A stretch of 49,524 bases of DNA from Halorubrum sp. CSM-61 (lineage in GTDB: Archaea; Halobacteriota; Halobacteria; Halobacteriales; Haloferacaceae). Of the stretch, positions 1 to 42,715 are shown one piece after another. The DNA is taken from the NCBI RefSeq assembly GCF_003781945.1, contig NZ_RJJW01000002.1, positions 490,864 through 540,387 on the forward strand, given 5' to 3'. Below the pieces are notes generated by a model. The model did no database searches. It had not been told where the DNA came from and saw only the letters and a list, made by a program, of their open reading frames with translations. A program made the translations under genes and the position numbers. Position 1 is the stretch's first letter, and the number at the start of each line of letters is the position of its first letter.

Positions 1-307
1 TCAAAGGGGCAGTCGCTGTGGGCGGCGCAGGCGACGTAAGCACCGCAGCGAGCACCGCGAGCGAGGAGCGCAGCGAGCGTGCGCCGCCCACAGCGGCTGG
101 GGCTTTGGAGGTGTTCACCGTCGATCCCCGAGAGGTCTTCGCCGCAACACCGTCGACCACTTATAAACAACCGACAGCAACGCCACTCGACCACTTATAA
201 ACAACCGACAGCAACGCCACTCGACCACTTATAAACAACCGACAGCAACGCCACTCGACCACTTATAAACAACCGACAGCAACACCACTCGACCACTTAT
301 AAACAAC
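1..307 (+). repeat. Dispersed structured repeat, copy 1 (left end cut by the window)
   Basis: The stretch opens with the core string caaaggggcag. It runs through an arm at 14-29 that is perfectly complementary to 80-95, encloses the core gacgtaagcaccgcag, and closes with ggggctttggaggtgttcacc. The outer bases caaag (2-6) can pair with ctttg (103-107) across a symmetric GGG/GGG internal loop. The same order of cores recurs in four other copies in the window. The two stem-loops that precede this part in other copies lie outside the window. An array of TATA-like 34-bp units follows. No reading frame is conserved between copies, so I treat it as non-coding. Confidence 0.85.
157..307 (+). repeat. 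34-bp tandem array carrying five TATA-like boxes
   Basis: Units start at 157, 191, 225, 259 and 293. There are four full units and a final partial one, nearly identical (one g-to-a change in the fourth). Each contains cttataaac, which looks like a haloarchaeal TATA element. No gene begins just downstream on the plus strand; the next gene (L15e) points toward it. A homologous 34-bp array, with about seven substitutions per unit, abuts another copy of the structured repeat at 20548-20640. It is not CRISPR, because no unique spacers separate the units. Confidence 0.9.
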
Positions 308-441
308 TACCTCACAAACGTGCTATACCCACTCCCGCAGTGAATCAACCCCACGTTCACCGATGAACGGCGCTACGTCGACGTCGTCACTAGGCGACTG
401 ATAAACGAGAGAAGTCGGTCGGAACCGCCGTCGGCTGAGCG

Positions 442-3643: not shown

Positions 3644-6619
3644 TTACTCGTTACGCCGCGTCGCGAGCAGCGCAGCCGCGATGAGGGCGACGAGGGCGAC
3701 GAGCGCACCGAAGCCGGGCGTGCCGTCTTCGGAGCCGTCGTCACCGTCTTCGCCGTCGGATCCGTCGTCACCGTCGTCGGAACCGTCCTCACCGTCGTCG
3801 GTTCCGTCTTCGCCGTCGTCGGTACCGTCCTCACCGTCGTCGGTACCGTCCTCACCGTCTTCGCCGTCCTCACCGTCTTCGCCGTCCTCGGTACCGTCGT
3901 CGACCTGCTCGACGATGACACCGTCAACGGCGTCCTGGCCGCTGAAGGCAGCCTGACGGAACGAAGCCGTGAACGTGTCGTTCACGCTCTGCGAGCTCAG
4001 GTCGTACGGAGCGGCCTCGAACGAGCCGTCAGCGTTGACCGCGATCTCGTCGGCGGTCAGCGTGAAGCGCGGCGAGGTGTCCTGGTCCGAGCGCAGGCGG
4101 ACTGCGAACTCGGTACCGGGCGCGACGTTCGTCGTGCCGGTGATCGAGGATTCCTCGCTCAGCGGCGCCTCGACGAGATCGTCGTTGTTCGTGTCGAACT
4201 CTGCTTCGGCCTCTTCGACGGCGAACGTCGCGTTCGCTGTCTCGTAGGCGTCTTCGAGCTCGTCAGAGTCGAAGGTAGAGCCGGCACCACGCAGGAGACG
4301 CTGGTCCTGCACCGTGAAGTCAACCTGGTACTCGTCGCCGTCCTCGAACGTGTCCGAGGCGACAGAGTTCACAGTGTCGATGTCGGTGAGCACGTAGTAG
4401 TTGTCCGTCTCGCCGTCGTAGACAACCGTGAAGGCGCTCGTGAACTGACTCTCAGTCAGATCCGCGGCCACGTCGACCGTCTTGGGGTCGGCGTTGCGGC
4501 CGGGGTTCTGCTCTTCGAGCACCAGACTCGACGCGTTGTCAGAGTTGGACACACCATTGAGTCCATTGTTGCTCGTCGAGAGCAGGTTGTACAGCTGCGT
4601 CGTGGCGTCGTCACCGTCCGCACTGACGTTCGAGAGGGCTCCCTCGACGCCAGGGGCGGTAATCTGGTGGACGAGCACGTCGCTGTCGCTCGGGTTGCTC
4701 GACGTGTCGAGCGCGATCGTTTCGGTCTCGGTGATCGTGTCACCAGTCGCGTTGTTGATCGCATCGACAACGTCAACGTCGTCGTCGTCGAGCGCGTCGC
4801 TCACGCTCTCAGCGCCGTCGCCGCTCGTCCGCCACAGCGCCATCTCGGGCGCCGTGCGCTCCTCAATGAGGAGCGTGGACACGTCGTCCTCGTTGGAGAA
4901 CGCGTCTTCCGCGTTGCTCGCCGAAGCGGAGATAATCTCGTAATCGCCCGTGTCGAGCATCTTGCCCAGCGTCTGAGCGTCGCTACTCTGGTTATCGAGC
5001 GTAGCCTCGTCGTCGTCGCTCGCTGCTTCGACGATCGTTCCGCTAGCCTGACCAGCCTGGTAGGTGTTGAAGAGGATGGTGACTTCGCCGTCAGCATCCG
5101 CGTCGTCAACACCGTCAGTCACGGAGATGTTCGCCTGGTAGTTCGCTTCGTCGGCGTCGCCGATCACGACGTAGCCGGACTCGACGTCTTCGAGTTCGAC
5201 CGTGATCTCTGCGACGTCACCCTGCACAACCTCAGACGAGGCGTCGGCGAACTGCACGCCGCCCTCGCCAGCTTCGACGACGTCGAAGTCGCTGGAGGTG
5301 GCGGTGATACCGGAATTGTCGTCAGTCACTTCGATCGAGTAGGTGTCCTCGTCGGAAACCTGACCGAAGTTGGCGTCGAACTCACCGTTCGTGTCGATCT
5401 CACCGGTGACCGTATCGTACACGTCACCGTCGGAGTCGAGCAGCTCAACCGTGACGTCACGGTTGATCGTGTCGGAGGTGACCGTCGCGGTCACGTCCTC
5501 GTCAGTCTCGAACTCCTCTTCGTCGGCCTCAACTTCGAGACCGAGGTTGCTCACTTCGAGCGTCGTCTCAGTACCTGCGTCGTTCGTGATGTTGTAGTCA
5601 CCAGTCTCGAAGTCATCAGTGTCGACGACGTACACGAGACTGTTCGCGCCAGTACCACGGGTCCGGCTGACACCAGGCCCGTCAATGTCGAAGGAATCAC
5701 CGGAGGTGTTGCTTTCGAGCGCAACATTCTCACCGGAGAACGCTTCGTAGTTCCCGCTGTCGTCGTACGTCGTGACGACGCTTGGCGCGAACGTGACATC
5801 TACGGCGTCACTGCTCACGTCATTGCCAGAGGTATCCGTGACATCAGACACGGACACGTTTTCGACGTTGTTGTAAACCGTAGTCGTCGGGATTTGGACT
5901 AGTCCAGGAGCGGCTTCAGTACCGGAGATGTCGCTCACGGAAACAACGGTTCCGTTGCTCAGGCCGATATCGGCACTACCACTGGAGACGTCGACGTCCT
6001 CGCTGAAGGAGACCTCAAGAACGGGAGTTGTGGTACCGTTCTCGTAATGAGTTGCCTTCCGGATGGAAGGCGCATCCACGTCTGCCGAGACCGTGCCCAC
6101 GGTCTGGTCAGTTTCTTCGTAGGTCCCGTCTGCGTTAGCGTCCACATCAGCGGTAACGTCGAAATCACCGCTTTCCGTCACAGAGACCTGATCAGCCGTG
6201 AAGCTGACGTTGAGGCTGTCACCAGCCATTCCATTGTTGTCGTCCCACTCGATGGTAACCGTGTTCGCCGAGGCGTCAAGGTTACTATCGACGTTCGTAG
6301 TATTGGTGTCGGCACCCGTACTCTCGACAGCCTGGTTAGTTAGGCTGGCGGAGGACAGATCGAACTCATCTGCGAACTTGAACGTAACGTTCGCGTCTGT
6401 ATTGCCGTTACTGCTGTCAACACCATCTACGGTGATATTGATGTCATAAGACTGTTCTCCAGAGCCAGCGGTATCAGGCGAAATATTCCCGCCTGAAGTC
6501 CCGCTAGCTTGTGCAGCTGCCGGAGCAGCCGCAAAGCCGACGGCAACCATGGAGACGACCATGACCGCCGCGAAGAAGATCGCGTTGACCTTCTTGCGTG
6601 TAGTAGTTTCGTTTGTCAT
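3644..6619 (-). CDS. csg: S-layer glycoprotein, paralogue 1
   Basis: This 991-residue protein forms the cell-wall lattice. A Sec signal peptide occupies about residues 1-37 (hydrophobic core FFAAVMVVSMVAVGFAAA, then Ala-rich cleavage region). Then come Ig-like beta domains rich in Asp/Glu/Thr with many N-X-S/T sequons, a linker of repeated GED/GTDD units, and a C-terminal PGF-CTERM tail (TPGFGALVALV, PGF near residue 968) for archaeosortase processing and lipid attachment. From the RKATHY motif near residue 190 onward it is closely homologous to the second S-layer gene; the region before that is unrelated. It has its own promoter, leader and terminator. The low Lys and Cys content is normal for halophilic surface proteins. 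Confidence 0.95.
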   Translation of the reverse strand: MTNETTTRKKVNAIFFAAVMVVSMVAVGFAAAPAAAQASGTSGGNISPDTAGSGEQSYDINITVDGVDSSNGNTDANVTFKFADEFDLSSASLTNQAVESTGADTNTTNVDSNLDASANTVTIEWDDNNGMAGDSLNVSFTADQVSVTESGDFDVTADVDANADGTYEETDQTVGTVSADVDAPSIRKATHYENGTTTPVLEVSFSEDVDVSSGSADIGLSNGTVVSVSDISGTEAAPGLVQIPTTTVYNNVENVSVSDVTDTSGNDVSSDAVDVTFAPSVVTTYDDSGNYEAFSGENVALESNTSGDSFDIDGPGVSRTRGTGANSLVYVVDTDDFETGDYNITNDAGTETTLEVSNLGLEVEADEEEFETDEDVTATVTSDTINRDVTVELLDSDGDVYDTVTGEIDTNGEFDANFGQVSDEDTYSIEVTDDNSGITATSSDFDVVEAGEGGVQFADASSEVVQGDVAEITVELEDVESGYVVIGDADEANYQANISVTDGVDDADADGEVTILFNTYQAGQASGTIVEAASDDDEATLDNQSSDAQTLGKMLDTGDYEIISASASNAEDAFSNEDDVSTLLIEERTAPEMALWRTSGDGAESVSDALDDDDVDVVDAINNATGDTITETETIALDTSSNPSDSDVLVHQITAPGVEGALSNVSADGDDATTQLYNLLSTSNNGLNGVSNSDNASSLVLEEQNPGRNADPKTVDVAADLTESQFTSAFTVVYDGETDNYYVLTDIDTVNSVASDTFEDGDEYQVDFTVQDQRLLRGAGSTFDSDELEDAYETANATFAVEEAEAEFDTNNDDLVEAPLSEESSITGTTNVAPGTEFAVRLRSDQDTSPRFTLTADEIAVNADGSFEAAPYDLSSQSVNDTFTASFRQAAFSGQDAVDGVIVEQVDDGTEDGEDGEDGEDGEDGTDDGEDGTDDGEDGTDDGEDGSDDGDDGSDGEDGDDGSEDGTPGFGALVALVALIAAALLATRRNE

Positions 6620-7774: not shown

Positions 7775-10633
7775 TTACTCGCGACGCCGTGTCGCGAGGA
7801 GCGCGGCAGCGATGAGCGCGACGAGGGCGACGAGCGCACCGAAGCCGGGCGTACCGTCTTCGGTTTCGCCGTCGGTGCCGTCGGTTCCGTCGTCGGTTCC
7901 GTCTTCACCGTCGTCGGTTCCGTCGTCGGTACCGTCGTCACCGTCGGTGACGTTGCCGTCGTCGCCGTCTTCACCGTCAGTAACGTTGCCGTCGTCACCG
8001 TCGTCACCGTCGGTGACGTTGCCGTCGTCGCCGTCAGTGACGTTGCCGTCGGTTCCGTTGCCGGCCGATTCGACGATGACACCGTCAACGGCGTCCTGGC
8101 CGTCGAAGGCGGCCTGACGGAACGTCGCCTCGAAGGTGTCGTTGACGCTCTGTTCGCTCAGATCGAACGGAGCGGCCTCGAACGAGCCGTTAGCGCCGGT
8201 CGAAACCTCGTTTGCGGTTAGCGTGAAGCGCGGCGAGGTCTCGTCAGTCGAGCGCAGGCGGACTGCGAACTCGGTACCGGGCGCGACGTTCGTCGAGCCA
8301 GTGACCGAGGAATTCTCGCCCATCGGCGCCTCGATGAGATCGTCGTCGTTCGTATCGAACTCTGCTTCGGCCTCTTCGACGTCGAACGTCGCGTTCGCCG
8401 TCTCGTAGGCGTCTTCGAGGTCGTCAGCGTTATCGAAGCCGCTGGCCGAGCCCTGCAGGAGGCGTTCGTCCTGCACCGTGAACTCAGCCGAGAACTCGTC
8501 GCCGTCCTCGAAGTCCTCACCAGCTTCGTCGTTCAGGCTGTCCTGGTCGACGAGGATGTAGTAGTTGCCCGTCTCCCCGTCGTAGGCAACCGTGAAGACG
8601 TTCTCGAAGGCGGTCTGTCCGAGCTCGCTCGCGTTGATCGTCTTCGCCTCTGCGTTACGGCCGGGGTTCTGCTCCTCGAAGATGAGGTCGGCCGCGTACG
8701 CGTTGTTCTGGTTGTTACCGTTGTTCAGCAGTTCGTACAGGTTCTCCGTCGCAGTGTTGTCGGACGCGCCGACAGATTCGAGCGCGCCTTCAAGACCGGG
8801 AGCGGTAACCTGGTGAACCAGCACGTCGCTGTCCGTACCGTCCGGGTCGAGTGCGACCGAGTCGGTCTCCGTGATAGCGTCGTTGTTGACCGAGTCGTTG
8901 ATCGCGGTGACGACATCGACATCGTCGTCGTCGAGTGCGTCGCTCACACTCTCAGCACCGGACGGGCTCGTCCGCCACAGCGTCATCTCCGGCGCTGTAC
9001 GCTCCTCGATGAGGAGCGTGGACACGTCGTCCTCGTTGGAGAACGCGTCCTCCGGGTTGTCCGCGGCAGCGGAGATCATCTCGTAGTCGCCCGTATCGAG
9101 CATCGTTCCGAGCTCTTGGGCATCGCTATTCTGGTCTTCGAGCGTAGCCTCGTCGTCATCGCTCTCGGCTTCGACGATCGTGCCGCTAGTCTGACCAGCC
9201 TGGTAGGTGTTGAAGAGGATGGTGACTTCGCCGTCAGCATCCGCGTCGTCAACACCGTCAGTCACGGAGATGTTCGCCTGGTAATTCGCGTCGTCCTGGT
9301 CGCCGATCACGACGTAGCCGGACTCGACGTCGTCGAGTTCGACCGTGATCTCGGCAACATCACCCTGCGTGACGTCAACCGAGCCGTTAGCGAACTGCAC
9401 GCCGCCCTCGCCAGCTTCGACGACGTCGAAGTCGCTGGAGGTGGCAGTGACACCGGAGTCGTCGTCAGTCACTTCGATCGAGTAGGTGTCCTCGTCGGAA
9501 ACCTGACCGAAGTCGGCGTCGAACTCACCGTTCGAGTCGATCTCGCCAGTGACCGTATCGTACACGTCACCGTCGGAGTCGAGCAGGTCAACCGTGACCG
9601 GGCGGTTGATCGTGTCGGAGGTGACCGTCGCGGTCACGTCCTCGTCCGTCTCGAACTCCTCTTCGTCGACCTCAACCTCGAGGCCGAGGTCGCTCACTTC
9701 GAGAACAGTCTCGGTACCTGCCTCGTTCGTGATGTTGTAGTCACCAGTCTCGAAGTCATCAGTGTCAACGACGTAGACCTGGCTGTTTGCACCGGTACCA
9801 CGAGTTCGGCTGACACTGGGACCGTCGATGTCGAACGCGTCGTTCACGGCGCCTTCAAGCGCGACGTTTTCGCCAGAGAACGCATCGTAGTTCACAGAGT
9901 CGTCCGTCGTGTCAACCGTGCTCGGCGCGAATGTGACATCGAAGTCGTCATCACTCACATCGTTGCCAGCGGTGTCAGTAACACCACTCTGGACCGAAAC
10001 GTTCTCGACGTTGTTGTAGACATCTCCAGTCTCAACGATAAGCTGGCCGGCGTTATTCTCAGAGATGCCGGAGGTGATCGTCTCAGTCGTACCGTCGCTC
10101 AGGCCGACCACGACTTCAGGGGATCCGCTGACATCAATATCGTTGGGGTAAGCGACCTCAACGATAGCGGTGTCAGATGAATCCACGTAATGAGTCGCCT
10201 TCCGCGGCTCGTCGCCACCCGTTTCGTCAATGGTCAGAGTGGTCTCGGACCCGGCATTATTTTCCAGATCGTCACCGTCGTTCAGCGAGGCATTTTCGTA
10301 TGCGTAGACGGTGTATTCGCCCTCATCAAGGTCACTAGCATCGAGTGACCAGCTGTTGTCGCTACTGGGATCGGAGACTGTAGCACTTGGCTCACCAGAG
10401 TCGAAGGTGCCATTGCCGTTAGAGTCTATAGCAACCTGAACTGCGTTTGTCCCGGTAGCATCGACTGTACCACTTACGGTTCCGGATTGGGTTACCGGAT
10501 TGTCGAGCGTAATGCTCGAGTCGTCTGCAGCCGCCGGAGCGGCCGCAAAGCCGATCGCAACCATGGAGACGACCATGATTGCTGCGAAAAAGACCGCGCT
10601 GGCCTTTCCGCGATAGTTTGTATCGTTTGTCAT
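7775..10633 (-). CDS. S-layer glycoprotein, paralogue 2
   Basis: This is a 952-residue protein with a Sec signal peptide (about residues 1-37), Ig-like domains and a PGF-CTERM tail (PGF near residue 929). The first mature domain, before RKATHY, is unlike that of paralogue 1. The rest aligns almost without gaps, with some blocks identical at the nucleotide level. The stalk differs: four NVTDG repeats plus one NGT give five N-glycosylation sequons, where paralogue 1 has only acidic GED/GTDD repeats. It lies directly upstream of paralogue 1 on the same strand, but each gene has its own promoter and terminator. Which one builds the main lattice cannot be told from sequence. Confidence 0.94.
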   Translation of the reverse strand: MTNDTNYRGKASAVFFAAIMVVSMVAIGFAAAPAAADDSSITLDNPVTQSGTVSGTVDATGTNAVQVAIDSNGNGTFDSGEPSATVSDPSSDNSWSLDASDLDEGEYTVYAYENASLNDGDDLENNAGSETTLTIDETGGDEPRKATHYVDSSDTAIVEVAYPNDIDVSGSPEVVVGLSDGTTETITSGISENNAGQLIVETGDVYNNVENVSVQSGVTDTAGNDVSDDDFDVTFAPSTVDTTDDSVNYDAFSGENVALEGAVNDAFDIDGPSVSRTRGTGANSQVYVVDTDDFETGDYNITNEAGTETVLEVSDLGLEVEVDEEEFETDEDVTATVTSDTINRPVTVDLLDSDGDVYDTVTGEIDSNGEFDADFGQVSDEDTYSIEVTDDDSGVTATSSDFDVVEAGEGGVQFANGSVDVTQGDVAEITVELDDVESGYVVIGDQDDANYQANISVTDGVDDADADGEVTILFNTYQAGQTSGTIVEAESDDDEATLEDQNSDAQELGTMLDTGDYEMISAAADNPEDAFSNEDDVSTLLIEERTAPEMTLWRTSPSGAESVSDALDDDDVDVVTAINDSVNNDAITETDSVALDPDGTDSDVLVHQVTAPGLEGALESVGASDNTATENLYELLNNGNNQNNAYAADLIFEEQNPGRNAEAKTINASELGQTAFENVFTVAYDGETGNYYILVDQDSLNDEAGEDFEDGDEFSAEFTVQDERLLQGSASGFDNADDLEDAYETANATFDVEEAEAEFDTNDDDLIEAPMGENSSVTGSTNVAPGTEFAVRLRSTDETSPRFTLTANEVSTGANGSFEAAPFDLSEQSVNDTFEATFRQAAFDGQDAVDGVIVESAGNGTDGNVTDGDDGNVTDGDDGDDGNVTDGEDGDDGNVTDGDDGTDDGTDDGEDGTDDGTDGTDGETEDGTPGFGALVALVALIAAALLATRRRE

Positions 10634-16364: not shown

Positions 16365-16973
16365 TTATAAACCCGAATGCGGTCGGCGTCGCCGGCGGCT
16401 CCGCCGCCGGCTGTCACCGGGCTTCGCCCGGTTGCCCGAGGGACTGTGTCCCTCGCTGCAAGAGGCGCGTCGCGCCTCCCTGCGTGCCTCCGAGCGGCCG
16501 CCCTCGGCGACCGTTGAGGAGCACGCGCGAGGGAGTCGCTGGCGCCGTCGGCGCCAGCGACAGGGCGAGAGCGAAGCTCTCGCTAGCAACCGGACGTAGT
16601 CCGGTGACGAGGTTGGGGAGGCGTGAGGCGCCGTGCGGTTGCGGGTGGGTGGGACTCAAAGGGGCAGTCGCCGGCGGCTTCGCCGCCGGCTGCCAGAGGC
16701 GCGAAGCTCTCGCCCTGCCGCGAGGGCGGCGCAGGCGTTCACGAGAGCGGAGCTCTCGTGAGCCAATCAGAACGCTTCGCGTTCTGATGACGACGTAAGC
16801 ACCGCAAGGAGTGAGCAAAGCGAACGACTGAGGAGCGTGGTTCGAGAGAGCGAAGCTCTCTCGTCATCACGAAAGGCGCTTCGCGCCTTTCGAACGACAG
16901 CGAGCGTGCGCCGCCCTCACGGCTGGGGCTTTGGAGGTGTTCACCGCCGATCTGCAGTCAACCACTTATAAAC
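16365..16973 (+). repeat. Dispersed structured repeat, copy 2, expanded by nested hairpins
   Basis: It is bounded by ttataaac at 16365-16372 and 16966-16973. The order of cores is as in the other copies: stem 3 (16495-16513), stem 2 (16535-16561), gaggttggggaggcgtgag, gggactcaaaggggcag (16651-16667), gacgtaagcaccgca, and gctggggctttggaggtgttcacc. Between these cores lie extra perfect hairpins of 7-10 bp with three-base loops, absent from the other copies. It is therefore about twice the normal size. Reading frames across it are not conserved. Confidence 0.85.
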
Positions 16974-20419: not shown

Positions 20420-20547
20420 ACTCCGTCGTTTGCGGCTTCCGTGCTTAATCGCTTCGGTACGGCGGATCCGTCGAAGTATGGGTCGCAGCTGTCAACGCCG
20501 TTCCGCGGAACTCGCGAGAGTACGTGTCTCAGTTCAGTCGATCGGCT

Positions 20548-20912
20548 GTTTATACGTGATCGAGCGGTGTCGCTGTCGGCCGTTTATACGTGATCGAGCG
20601 GTGTCGCTGTCGGCCGTTTATACGTGATCGACGGCGCTAGGGTGAACACCTCCAAAGCCCCAGCCGCGAGGGCGGCGCACGTTCGTTGCGCGCCTCGCTC
20701 GCGTTGCTCGCTGCGGTGCTTACGTCACCTGCGCTGCCCTCGCAGCTGCCCCTTTGAGTCCCACCCCGTACAGCACCGCCTCCGCACCTCACGCCTCCCC
20801 AGCCTCGTCGCTGGCGCCTTATGAGGCGCCAGCGACTCCCTCGCGCGACGCTCCTCGTGGCCGCCGATGGCGGCCACTCGGAGGCGCGCGCCACCGCACT
20901 GTTCGTTTATAA
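20548..20912 (-). repeat. Dispersed structured repeat, copy 3 (most complete)
   Basis: Read on the minus strand: ttataaac, then stem 3 (gtggccgcc-atc-ggcggccac), gagggagtcg, stem 2 (13 bp, gtcgctggcgcct-cata-...), gaggctggggaggcgtgag, gggactcaaaggggcag, stem 1 (19 positions, one wobble and one mismatch), gacgtaagcaccgcagcgag, ggggctttggaggtgttcacc, and finally three TATA-like boxes at 34-bp spacing (20548, 20582, 20616). The stem arms differ from those of other copies, but their pairing is kept. Confidence 0.88.
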
Positions 20913-21134
20913 GCGATCGCCGTAATTGCTCATACCGTTTAAATACCGTATCGGCGCCATCGATCTACGATATCCACTCCCGCTATCGATCGCAAAGCAC
21001 TCTTCAGCGATCGACTGTCACAGACCGGAACCTGTCCGAAAACGGGTTTTAACAGAGCCGAACCGGCGGGTTACGCCGACTAAACCCGCGTTTACGAGGA
21101 GTATAACCAACGGGTCGACGCCGGTCGGATCGAT

Positions 21135-38497: not shown

Positions 38498-38899
38498 GTC
38501 GTCTCCGGTTCGGGATTCCGTTCGGATCGCAAGAGTGGCTGTTTCGGAGTTTCGTTCGGTCATTTATACTGGATTCAGGGCGGTAGTGACAGAGCGATCA
38601 ACACCGCCAACGCCCCAGCCGTCGCTTATAAACCGTTAACTGCGGATCGACGGCGACCACCGCCAACGCCCCAGCCGTTCGCTTATAAACCGTTAACTGC
38701 GGATCGACGGCGACCACCGCCAAAGCCCCAGCCGTGAAGCGGACGCACGCTCGTTGCGCTCCTCACTCGGTCGCTCACGCTCCCTCGCTGCGGTGCTTAC
38801 GTCACCTGCGTCCGCTTCACGGCTGCCCCTTTGAGTCCCGCCCCGACCGCAACCGCCCCGCACCTCAGGCCTCCCCAGCCTCGTCGGCCGGCGCTTATA

Positions 38900-40053
38900 G
38901 TGCTTCACAGAAGATTTAGGTGTACTCTGCGTGGGTAGGGTAATGACTGGACGGGAGAAAGAGATCGTCCGACACCTCAGTGAGGACGATCTCGACCGCT
39001 TGCTCACACAGACTGATAGCGAGAAGGTGAGCAAGCGGCTCACCTTCATCAAACGGCTGTACAAGGGTGCAACGCTCGAAGACGCAGCCGATGATGTTGG
39101 AAAGTCCCAATCAACCGGGAGTCTCTGGGCCAAACGCTGGAATGAGGGTGGACTCGGGAAACTCACGCCGAACTTCGGAGGCGGGCGGCCTCCGAAGCTC
39201 GGCGATGACGAGCGTGAGCGTCTTATCGAACGACTCGAAGAAGGCGAACCCTGGAAGAAACAGGAAATTCAGCACCTGCTGAACACAGAATTTGACGTCG
39301 AGTTTCATCCGAACTATCTGCCACGATTCCTCTCTGATCTTGGCCTCTCGTACGCGATTCCGCGTACGGAGAGGCCAGATCGACCTGATAATGCCGATGC
39401 AATCCTCGACGAACGCGTTTCCGACGCGTTCGCCGAGGATGAGGTAGACGAGCCACACAACAAACAGCCTGAAGACGACAGTGACGAGGAATGGACGGTC
39501 GATGATGATGTTCGAACAGATGGTGGGACGACGGTCGGTTTCTTCGATATCTCGCACCCACAGCCATGGGACAATTCCCAGCGACTCTACACCGTCAGTG
39601 AGCCGACGATCACCCGGCCGCTGGTGAAAATCGACACACCAGCGGCCGGGTTCTATGCGCTCAACGGTGAGAGCGTCCTCCAGTTCCCGCCCACCCAAGA
39701 GAAAGAGCAGATCTGCGCGTGTTTCAAGGAGGTTCGCGAGCAGAATCCGGGCGAGCGGATTCTGCTCGTCTTGGACAACTTCTCCTCACACATCTGTGCG
39801 CACACGCGGAAACGCGCCCACGAACTCGGAATCGACCTCATCTTTCTCCCAGTCGGCTCACCGCATCTCAACCCGATTGAGCCAGTCTGGAAAAGTCTCA
39901 AATGGGAGTCATCGCCCCTCATCGTGGAGGGCGCGGCAGAGTACCGCGCCCTCCTCGATGAAATCTTCACGAAGTTGACCGACCAGCTGAGTTTCGCAGG
40001 CTCGTGGATCAAGAATCATCTCAGCGGATTCATCCAGAAGTTGCGTTAATCAC
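38900..40053 (+). mobile_element. IS630-type insertion sequence inside the structured repeat
   Basis: The element spans about 1154 bp and has short imperfect inverted ends (gtgcttcac / RC gtgattaac). The flanks read gcgct-tata-[IS]-tata-agcgc. That fits a duplicated TATA or a TA duplication with the outer TA counted in the element. The uninterrupted stem loops of other copies have equivalent length only if TATA was the duplicated target. Confidence 0.85.
38943..40049 (+). CDS. IS630-family DDE transposase
   Basis: From ATG 38943 it is 368 residues; a GTG at 38931 is an alternative. The N-terminal part has a helix-turn-helix (SKRLTFIKRLYKGATLEDAA, DVGKSQSTGSLWAKRW) and a second DNA-binding segment (GGGRPPKLGDDERERLI). 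The DDE catalytic residues lie in VGFFDISHPQPW, LLVLDNFSSHICAH and SPHLNPIEPVWKSLKW. The frame is intact, so the element may be active. Codon use is less GC-rich than in the surroundings. Confidence 0.93.
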   Translation: MTGREKEIVRHLSEDDLDRLLTQTDSEKVSKRLTFIKRLYKGATLEDAADDVGKSQSTGSLWAKRWNEGGLGKLTPNFGGGRPPKLGDDERERLIERLEEGEPWKKQEIQHLLNTEFDVEFHPNYLPRFLSDLGLSYAIPRTERPDRPDNADAILDERVSDAFAEDEVDEPHNKQPEDDSDEEWTVDDDVRTDGGTTVGFFDISHPQPWDNSQRLYTVSEPTITRPLVKIDTPAAGFYALNGESVLQFPPTQEKEQICACFKEVREQNPGERILLVLDNFSSHICAHTRKRAHELGIDLIFLPVGSPHLNPIEPVWKSLKWESSPLIVEGAAEYRALLDEIFTKLTDQLSFAGSWIKNHLSGFIQKLR

Positions 40054-40192
40054 TATAAGCGCCGGCCGACTCCCTCGCGCGTGCTTCTCGGCCGCGGAGC
40101 GGCCTCGAAGGCACGCGCCACCGCGACGCTCACAGTTATAAATCGCCGTCCCGGGGCGCGCTTTTTAAGCCACGCGCGAACCGACGGCGGGT

Positions 40193-42419: not shown

Positions 42420-42715
42420 GTTTATAAGTCGTTAGCGCCGGATCGACGGCGAACCCCTCCAAAGCCCCAGTCGGCTCCGGTCGAGGGGCTCGCTGCGCTC
42501 CTCAGTCGCTCGTTTCACTCGCTCCTTGCGGTGCTTGCGTCGCCCATCTTCTCGGAGCCGACTGCCCCTTTGAGTCCCACCCCGCACAGCACCGCCCCGC
42601 ACCTCACGCCTCCCCAGCCTCGCCGGCTCGGCGCTTACAAGCGCCGAGCCGACTCCCTCGCGCGTGCACCTCGCGCCCTGCGGGCGCTCGGCGGCACGCG
42701 CCGACCGCAACAGCG
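42420..42715 (-). repeat. Dispersed structured repeat, copy 5
   Basis: On the minus strand: stem 3 (gcgccc-gca-gggcgc type), gagggagtcg, stem 2 (12 bp, ggctcggcgctt-...), gaggctggggaggcgtgag, gggactcaaaggggcag, stem 1 outer 12 bp (cagtcggctccg), core gacgcaagcaccgca, ggggctttggaggggttc. A single gtttataa box lies at 42420-42427. The inner part of stem 1 is degenerate. Confidence 0.82.

Follow-up and report, generated by a model that had tools for sequence, protein, structure and literature searches.

A modular, dispersed haloarchaeal repeat with covarying stem-loops and a promoter-like box

Introduction

What kind of genetic element keeps its hairpins while rewriting their arms? A stretch of 49,524 nt from the genome of Halorubrum sp. 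CSM-61 (the window) raises this question, since a dispersed sequence recurs in it in which fixed strings alternate with stem-loops whose arms differ from copy to copy and stay complementary. The first-pass annotation of the window read this pattern as selection for the fold, left the element between a structured RNA and a mobile element recognised through its hairpins, and knew of no described family with this design.

The nearest earlier category is that of the haloarchaeal MITE, PATE and SMR repeats, which in Haloquadratum walsbyi occur in opposite orientations at one position and undergo core deletions between direct repeats, PATEs having near-terminal palindromes (PMC3119063). For bacterial MITEs, stem-loop transcripts have been predicted (PMC10969869). 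Neither Rfam, where the element had no match at the gathering or a relaxed threshold, nor the open-access literature searched, which contained no description of the fold and in which the element's strings gave only an unrelated full-text match, holds a family of this kind, and to that extent the initial claim of novelty was borne out.

Results

Architecture of the element and its copies in the window

The repeat unit is about 260 bases long, and all five copies that had been proposed were located in the window by their fixed strings, the order of these strings and their complementary arms, the sense strand being the plus strand in copies 1 and 2 and the minus strand in copies 3, 4 and 5. An intact Halorubrum-type copy begins with a TATA-like box followed by GCGGTGGCGCG, stem A, GCGAGGGA, stem B, GAGGCTGGGGAGGCGTGAGG and a spacer, and continues in its 3′ half with GGGACTCAAAGGGGCAG, stem C enclosing an inner GACGNAAGCACCGCA...GAGGAGCGCAGCGAG, and CTGGGGCTTTGGAGGTGTTCACC, after which come one or more TATA-bearing tandem repeats of 34 or 57 bp (stems A, B and C are those numbered 3, 2 and 1, respectively, in the first-pass annotation). 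On the sense strand, the 3′ hairpin domain of about 120 nt combines an internal loop in which GGG/GGG is conserved with an inner GACGNAAGCACYG / GCGCAGCGAG motif and tandem G.A pairs, and Halorubrum copies add to it a 5′ domain bearing two further hairpins. The element is modular, the 3′ domain occurring in other genera alone or in head-to-head pairs separated by about 25 nt; there it retains the ends GGGYGGGACTGAAAGGGGC...GGGGCTTTC, and its hairpin can be reduced to almost nothing (L195; L128, plus strand) or enlarged. The minimum free energies of six folded copies gave z-scores of -3.5 to -8.9 against shuffled sequences.

In copy 3 the structured core (20641-20897, minus strand) starts with GCGGTGGCGCG at its 5′ end (20887-20897) and proceeds through stem A, GCGAGGGA (20837-20844), stem B, GAGGCTGGGGAGGCGTGAGG (20787-20806), GGGACTCAAAGGGGC (20748-20762) and stem C with its inner GACGTAAGCACCGCA (20712-20726) to TGGGGCTTTGGAGGTGTTCACC (20641-20662). 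A TATA-like box lies 5′ of this core at 20906-20912, 34-bp TATA-bearing tandem repeats follow downstream at 20542-20643, and the upstream inverted-repeat end of the surrounding cassette, CGGGAGTGGATATCGTA, is at 20966-20982, all on the minus strand. Copy 5 (core 42448-42708, minus strand) has its 5′ end at 42699-42708, GCGAGGGA at 42654, GAGGCTGGGG at 42602, GGGACTCAAAGGGGC at 42564, GACGCAAGCACCGCA at 42527, GGGGCTTTGGAGG at 42448 and a downstream TATA box at 42421-42427. Copy 2 (16365-16972, plus strand) runs from a TATA box (16365-16371) and a 5′ end at 16379 through GCGAGGGA (16527), GAGGTTGGGGAGG (16609), GGGACTCAAAGGGGC (16651), GACGTAAGCACCGCA (16792) and GGGGCTTTGGAGG (16924-16945) to a downstream TATA box (16966-16972), its stems being made larger by inserted extra hairpins.

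The remaining two copies are cut or split. Copy 1 is cut by the edge of the window, in which only its 3′ domain is present (1-119, plus strand), its complete form beginning about 146 bp before the window at G000:C23:490718 (G000 being the window genome); downstream lie 34-bp tandem repeats with TTATAAA (153-322, plus strand) and the downstream inverted-repeat end of the cassette, CGGGAGTGGGTATAGCA (321-337, minus strand; G000:C23:491184-491200). Copy 4 is a single element divided in two by an IS630-type (DDE_3) insertion (38900-40054, plus strand; transposase 38931-40049) that cuts stem B at its TTATAA loop. Its 5′ part (40057-40142, minus strand) comprises the TATA box (40136-40142), GCGGTGGCGCG (40114-40124), stem A, GCGAGGGA (40071-40078) and the first arm of stem B, and its 3′ part (38709-38897, minus strand) half of the stem B loop, GAGGCTGGGG (38863-38882), GGGACTCAAAGGGGC (38825-38839), stem C and GGGGCTTTGG (38709-38730), followed at 38596-38689 on the same strand by tandem repeats of the 3′ end that are 57 bp long and contain TATA boxes. 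A protein-coding element was considered and rejected, the ORFs in copies 2 and 4 having no Pfam match apart from the IS630 transposase.

Small twin-hairpin inserts were observed inside the stems of many copies (window 16365-16972, L241, L237, L047, L191, L277 and L279), with constant linkers GTGGTT...TCATCA...AACGA or ...TGCCAG... and arms that are perfect yet variable, for example CGAGAGAGC/CGAAAGGCGC; by analogy with SMR-A, which targets PATEs in Haloquadratum, these may represent a further very small hairpin repeat with the present elements as its targets. The window also contains two adjacent long paralogous ORFs (3644-6619 and 7775-10633; 991 and 952 aa) with low-complexity repeats near one end, which read as acidic and Asp/Gly-rich on the coding strand; the ORFs possibly encode surface proteins.

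Covariation of the stems and the strand that folds

Across 51 aligned copies, 97.2% of the cells in the 38 pairs of the 3′ domain are paired, a figure that falls to 29-46% if the partner column is shifted by 1-3 positions, and double-sided change occurs in 31 of the 38 pairs (shuffle mean 16.6, with none of 500 shuffles as high). Because kinship among the copies inflates the slide and shuffle controls, the tests were repeated by other routes. In other genera, where stem C has 53 distinct arms in 65 copies, the ten nucleotides following the 5′ box match the copy's own 3′ arm at 9.02 of 10 positions and the arms of other copies at 6.09 of 10. For the 5′ domain, own-versus-cross arm tests were used because the stem B arms share no sequence and so defeat a MAFFT consensus: stem B, with 62 distinct arms in 125 copies, pairs with its own arm at 8.14 of 9 positions against 6.36 of 9 across copies, and in stem A, where only the inner hairpin was compared, the contrast is weaker (5.35 against 4.59 of 6). 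All three stems that the first reading had proposed are thus real, each pairing better within than between copies.

Co-variation extends to two non-canonical pairs, A.A exchanging with G.G and G.A with A.C. Counted on the sense strand, wobble G.U pairs outnumber A.C mismatches 61 to 10, and re-counts gave 42:7 in Halorubrum-type copies (p=4e-7) and 25:6 in copies of the type found in other genera (p=9e-4). The sense strand is therefore the strand that folds, and such an asymmetry is not expected of a palindrome maintained solely as double-stranded DNA.

Wholesale exchange of arms, inversion of cassettes and inversion within a hairpin all occur, so that not every double change need be a pair of compensated point mutations. 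In one copy (L274, G000:C22:98400-99150) the part of stem C that lies between the two arms is in reverse orientation, as though the hairpin had been turned round as DNA, which suggests that there the palindrome counts more than the inner motif. Since arm change proceeds at least in part by exchange and inversion, double changes alone are weaker evidence, whereas the strand asymmetry and the cross-genus tests are unaffected. With covariation above the shuffle and phylogenetic controls, the element is a candidate structured RNA, and the data point to selection acting on the sense strand as a folded single strand, for which RNA is the natural reading and single-stranded DNA a less likely one; the paired cells, double-sided changes, cross-genus arm tests and G.U excess together support the selection for the fold that had been proposed from the window's copies.

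Promoter-like box, distribution and genomic context

The suggestion that a promoter may drive the element fits the predicted promoter box at its 5′ end: of 145 copies, 85 have a TATA-like box ahead of their conserved 5′ end (59%, against 1% in the control), mostly by 14-16 nt and almost always by 14-23 nt. Among copies without inverted repeats, the box is present in 51 of 106 (2 of 212 control windows), about half having none. At the spacing usual in archaeal promoters, transcription would be predicted to start near the base of stem A.

The count of five describes the window, with one copy cut at its edge and one split; the genome holds far more, at least 150 with a covariance model of the 3′ domain, compared with 40 by BLAST alone. 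The same model found 98, 101 and 60 copies in three complete Halorubrum genomes, a density in Halorubrum of one copy per about 25-50 kb, and matched the 3′ domain in 186 of 242 genomes and 61 of 74 genera of the class. A pattern scan of named genomes gave matches that were almost all haloarchaeal, including Haloarcula, Haladaptatus, Natrinema, Halobellus and Halovenus; its sole match in a bacterial MAG lacks a stem and resembles coding sequence.

Judged by crude gene calls, intergenic positions account for 201 of 209 copies, and the four orientation classes relative to the neighbouring genes are nearly equally filled (62/53/47/39). A role as a UTR, riboswitch, cis-regulatory leader or terminator was rejected on this near-random orientation. 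No regular spacing or replication polarity was seen along three chromosomes among the matches listed. In the three complete Halorubrum genomes, the main replicon carries all 150 of the matches listed, and the Halorubrum-type core gave one match in 72,556 plasmid records, where the IS630 transposase from the window, as a control, was found in 41 records (three of them Halorubrum) and the diverged 3′ domain of other genera in 31. A phage search gave no match to the element.

Cassette exchange and mobility

CGGGAGT inverted repeats bound a subset of copies but are missing from copies 2, 4 and 5 and from several other loci. Among the sites listed, 34 convergent inverted-repeat pairs can be formed; all of them span 419-555 bp, those inspected hold the structured core, and none of the 34 encloses a transposase; no autonomous partner with the same inverted repeats was found among these sites. 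Identical CGGGAGT-to-ACTCCCG cassettes occur at unrelated loci (L015 and L016). Downstream of panB, six other Halorubrum genomes (L235, L237, L238, L240, L241 and L242) carry the element at the same place and in the same orientation, and in the five readable relatives and G000 the arms are complementary within each copy at 10-14 of 14 positions while differing between species; here the G000 cassette is inverted relative to that of G003, with an identical outer flank. The site that follows gyrA is occupied in G000, G003 and G012 (in G012 in the opposite orientation) and empty in many relatives. When empty sites were compared for a target-site duplication, the outer 9 bp were degenerate and no clean duplication was seen. 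At L234 and L254, stem C has been lost through deletion between GGCTGGGG direct repeats. The cassette subset behaves as an exchangeable, invertible unit.

Three further observations concern the surroundings of copies. In other genera (L127, L128, L134, L145, L191 and L193), the 3′ domain lies between ends like GTGTTCAGATAAG / CTTATCTGAACAC, and since these differ from the CGGGAGT ends of Halorubrum, the same fold seems to be carried by repeats of at least two kinds. Sequences beginning GGCTCTGTTGAAATCCT lie on either side of many CGGGAGT cassettes of the window genome, at a distance of about 100 bp (flanks of L275, L279, L018 and L057), and may constitute an independent IS-derived repeat that surrounds the cassettes. 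Beside one element copy, L005:1130-1270 gives a sub-threshold match to sot0042, a TnpB-associated sense overlapping RNA.

Discussion

The two alternatives set out at first, structured RNA and hairpin-recognising mobile element, appear to be partly right together. We give roughly even credence to a modular repeat, non-autonomous and semi-mobile, whose RNA core is under selection and which would be an archaeal counterpart of BOX elements or SINEs. The predicted transcription from near the base of stem A would yield the RNA, a host or IS protein would recognise the folded strand, and arm variants would spread through cassette copying and gene conversion and be retained only while they still pair. 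The element's main role is most likely its own maintenance, as a selfish sequence, with occasional use by the host possible. Several points count against this reading: about half of the copies lacking inverted repeats have no TATA-like box, the search for a transposase with the same ends gave none, no clean target-site duplication was seen, the confinement of the listed Halorubrum matches to the main replicon is unusual for a freely mobile element, and the inverted hairpin interior of L274 puts the palindrome before the inner motif in that copy.

Comparison with known systems places the element near several of them. Like the bacterial MITE-like repeats BOX, ERIC and RUP, it is intergenic, multi-copy, modular and non-autonomous, with predicted stem-loop transcripts, but it is archaeal, unrelated in sequence and class-wide, has its own TATA-like box and contains a 120-nt hairpin with conserved non-canonical motifs and arms swapped wholesale. 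With the MITEs, PATEs and SMRs of Haloquadratum it shares the lack of a transposase, the presence of palindromes, nested repeats, and both inversion and core deletion at a single site; it differs in its conserved RNA-like core and promoter-like box, and no IS-like terminal repeat or matching transposase was found for it (from the named HqIRS families it is set apart by description). Hundreds of intergenic hairpins, at times in inverted pairs, are also typical of REP/BIME sequences with their RAYT proteins, whereas the present element is much longer, has complex internal loops and has no RAYT partner shown. SINEs such as the 7SL-derived Alu are likewise RNA-gene-like repeats with their own promoter-like box, but the element has neither SRP RNA derivation nor evidence of reverse transcription; an SRP/7SL origin, prompted by GCGGTGGCGCGTGCC, was rejected when alignment to the host SRP RNA proved no better than to shuffled sequence. 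The omega-RNAs of IscB and TnpB (HEARO and sot RNAs) are structured RNAs on mobile elements common in haloarchaea; unlike them, the element has no Rfam match or internal tnpB, and the sot0042 match lies outside it.

A bolder reading, rather unlikely in our view, is an undescribed class-wide haloarchaeal ncRNA family, with scores to at least 150 Halorubrum chromosomal copies expressed, arms rewritten by cassette exchange and a conserved 3D core serving specific protein binding or RNA-guided mobility.

It is rather unlikely that the copies form a host ncRNA gene family whose RNA has a cellular protein or target as its binding partner and whose copies are retained because they serve the chromosome (in regulation, as a boundary or in the nucleoid), mobility being incidental. 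Such a family would suit the panB site retained across species with complementary arms, the class-wide range, the fixed distance of the promoter-like box, the absence of any of the 150 listed Halorubrum matches from outside the main replicon and the near absence of the Halorubrum-type query from plasmids in which the IS630 control is common, but it sits poorly with random orientation and spacing, with the many sites empty in relatives, with copy numbers that differ strongly among genera and with the plasmid copies of other genera.

We regard as unlikely a PATE- or REP-like element acting at the DNA level, its single-stranded hairpins being the substrate of an HUH/IS200-IS605-type transposase and having no RNA function. 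The deletions and inversions described for PATEs (PMC3119063) recur here (L234, L254, and the panB and gyrA sites), head-to-head pairs recall BIME organisation, and a single-stranded DNA substrate would likewise produce the wobble strand bias. Against this stand the TATA-like box tied to the 5′ end, non-canonical co-variation typical of RNA, the fold kept at old orthologous sites and hairpins far longer than REP or IS605 ends, with no matching IS605-type end or transposase shown. Quite improbable, finally, is that DNA templating (palindrome correction and gene conversion) makes the paired changes with the fold unselected: wholesale arm replacement, arms common to several loci, cassette exchange and inversion, and the variable perfect arms of the unrelated twin-hairpin inserts would all fit, but templating predicts equal G.T and A.C intermediates where G.U strongly exceeds A.C in three counts, and conserved unpaired motifs, co-varying non-canonical pairs and pairing that persists across genera speak against it.

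Whichever reading holds, the fold is present in most of the sampled genera of haloarchaea but is named in no RNA library. Its copies form a large natural series of compensatory mutations, of help in finding the protein that reads the element and in separating selection on RNA from correction of DNA palindromes, and the element is a marker of cassette exchange in archaeal intergenic DNA.
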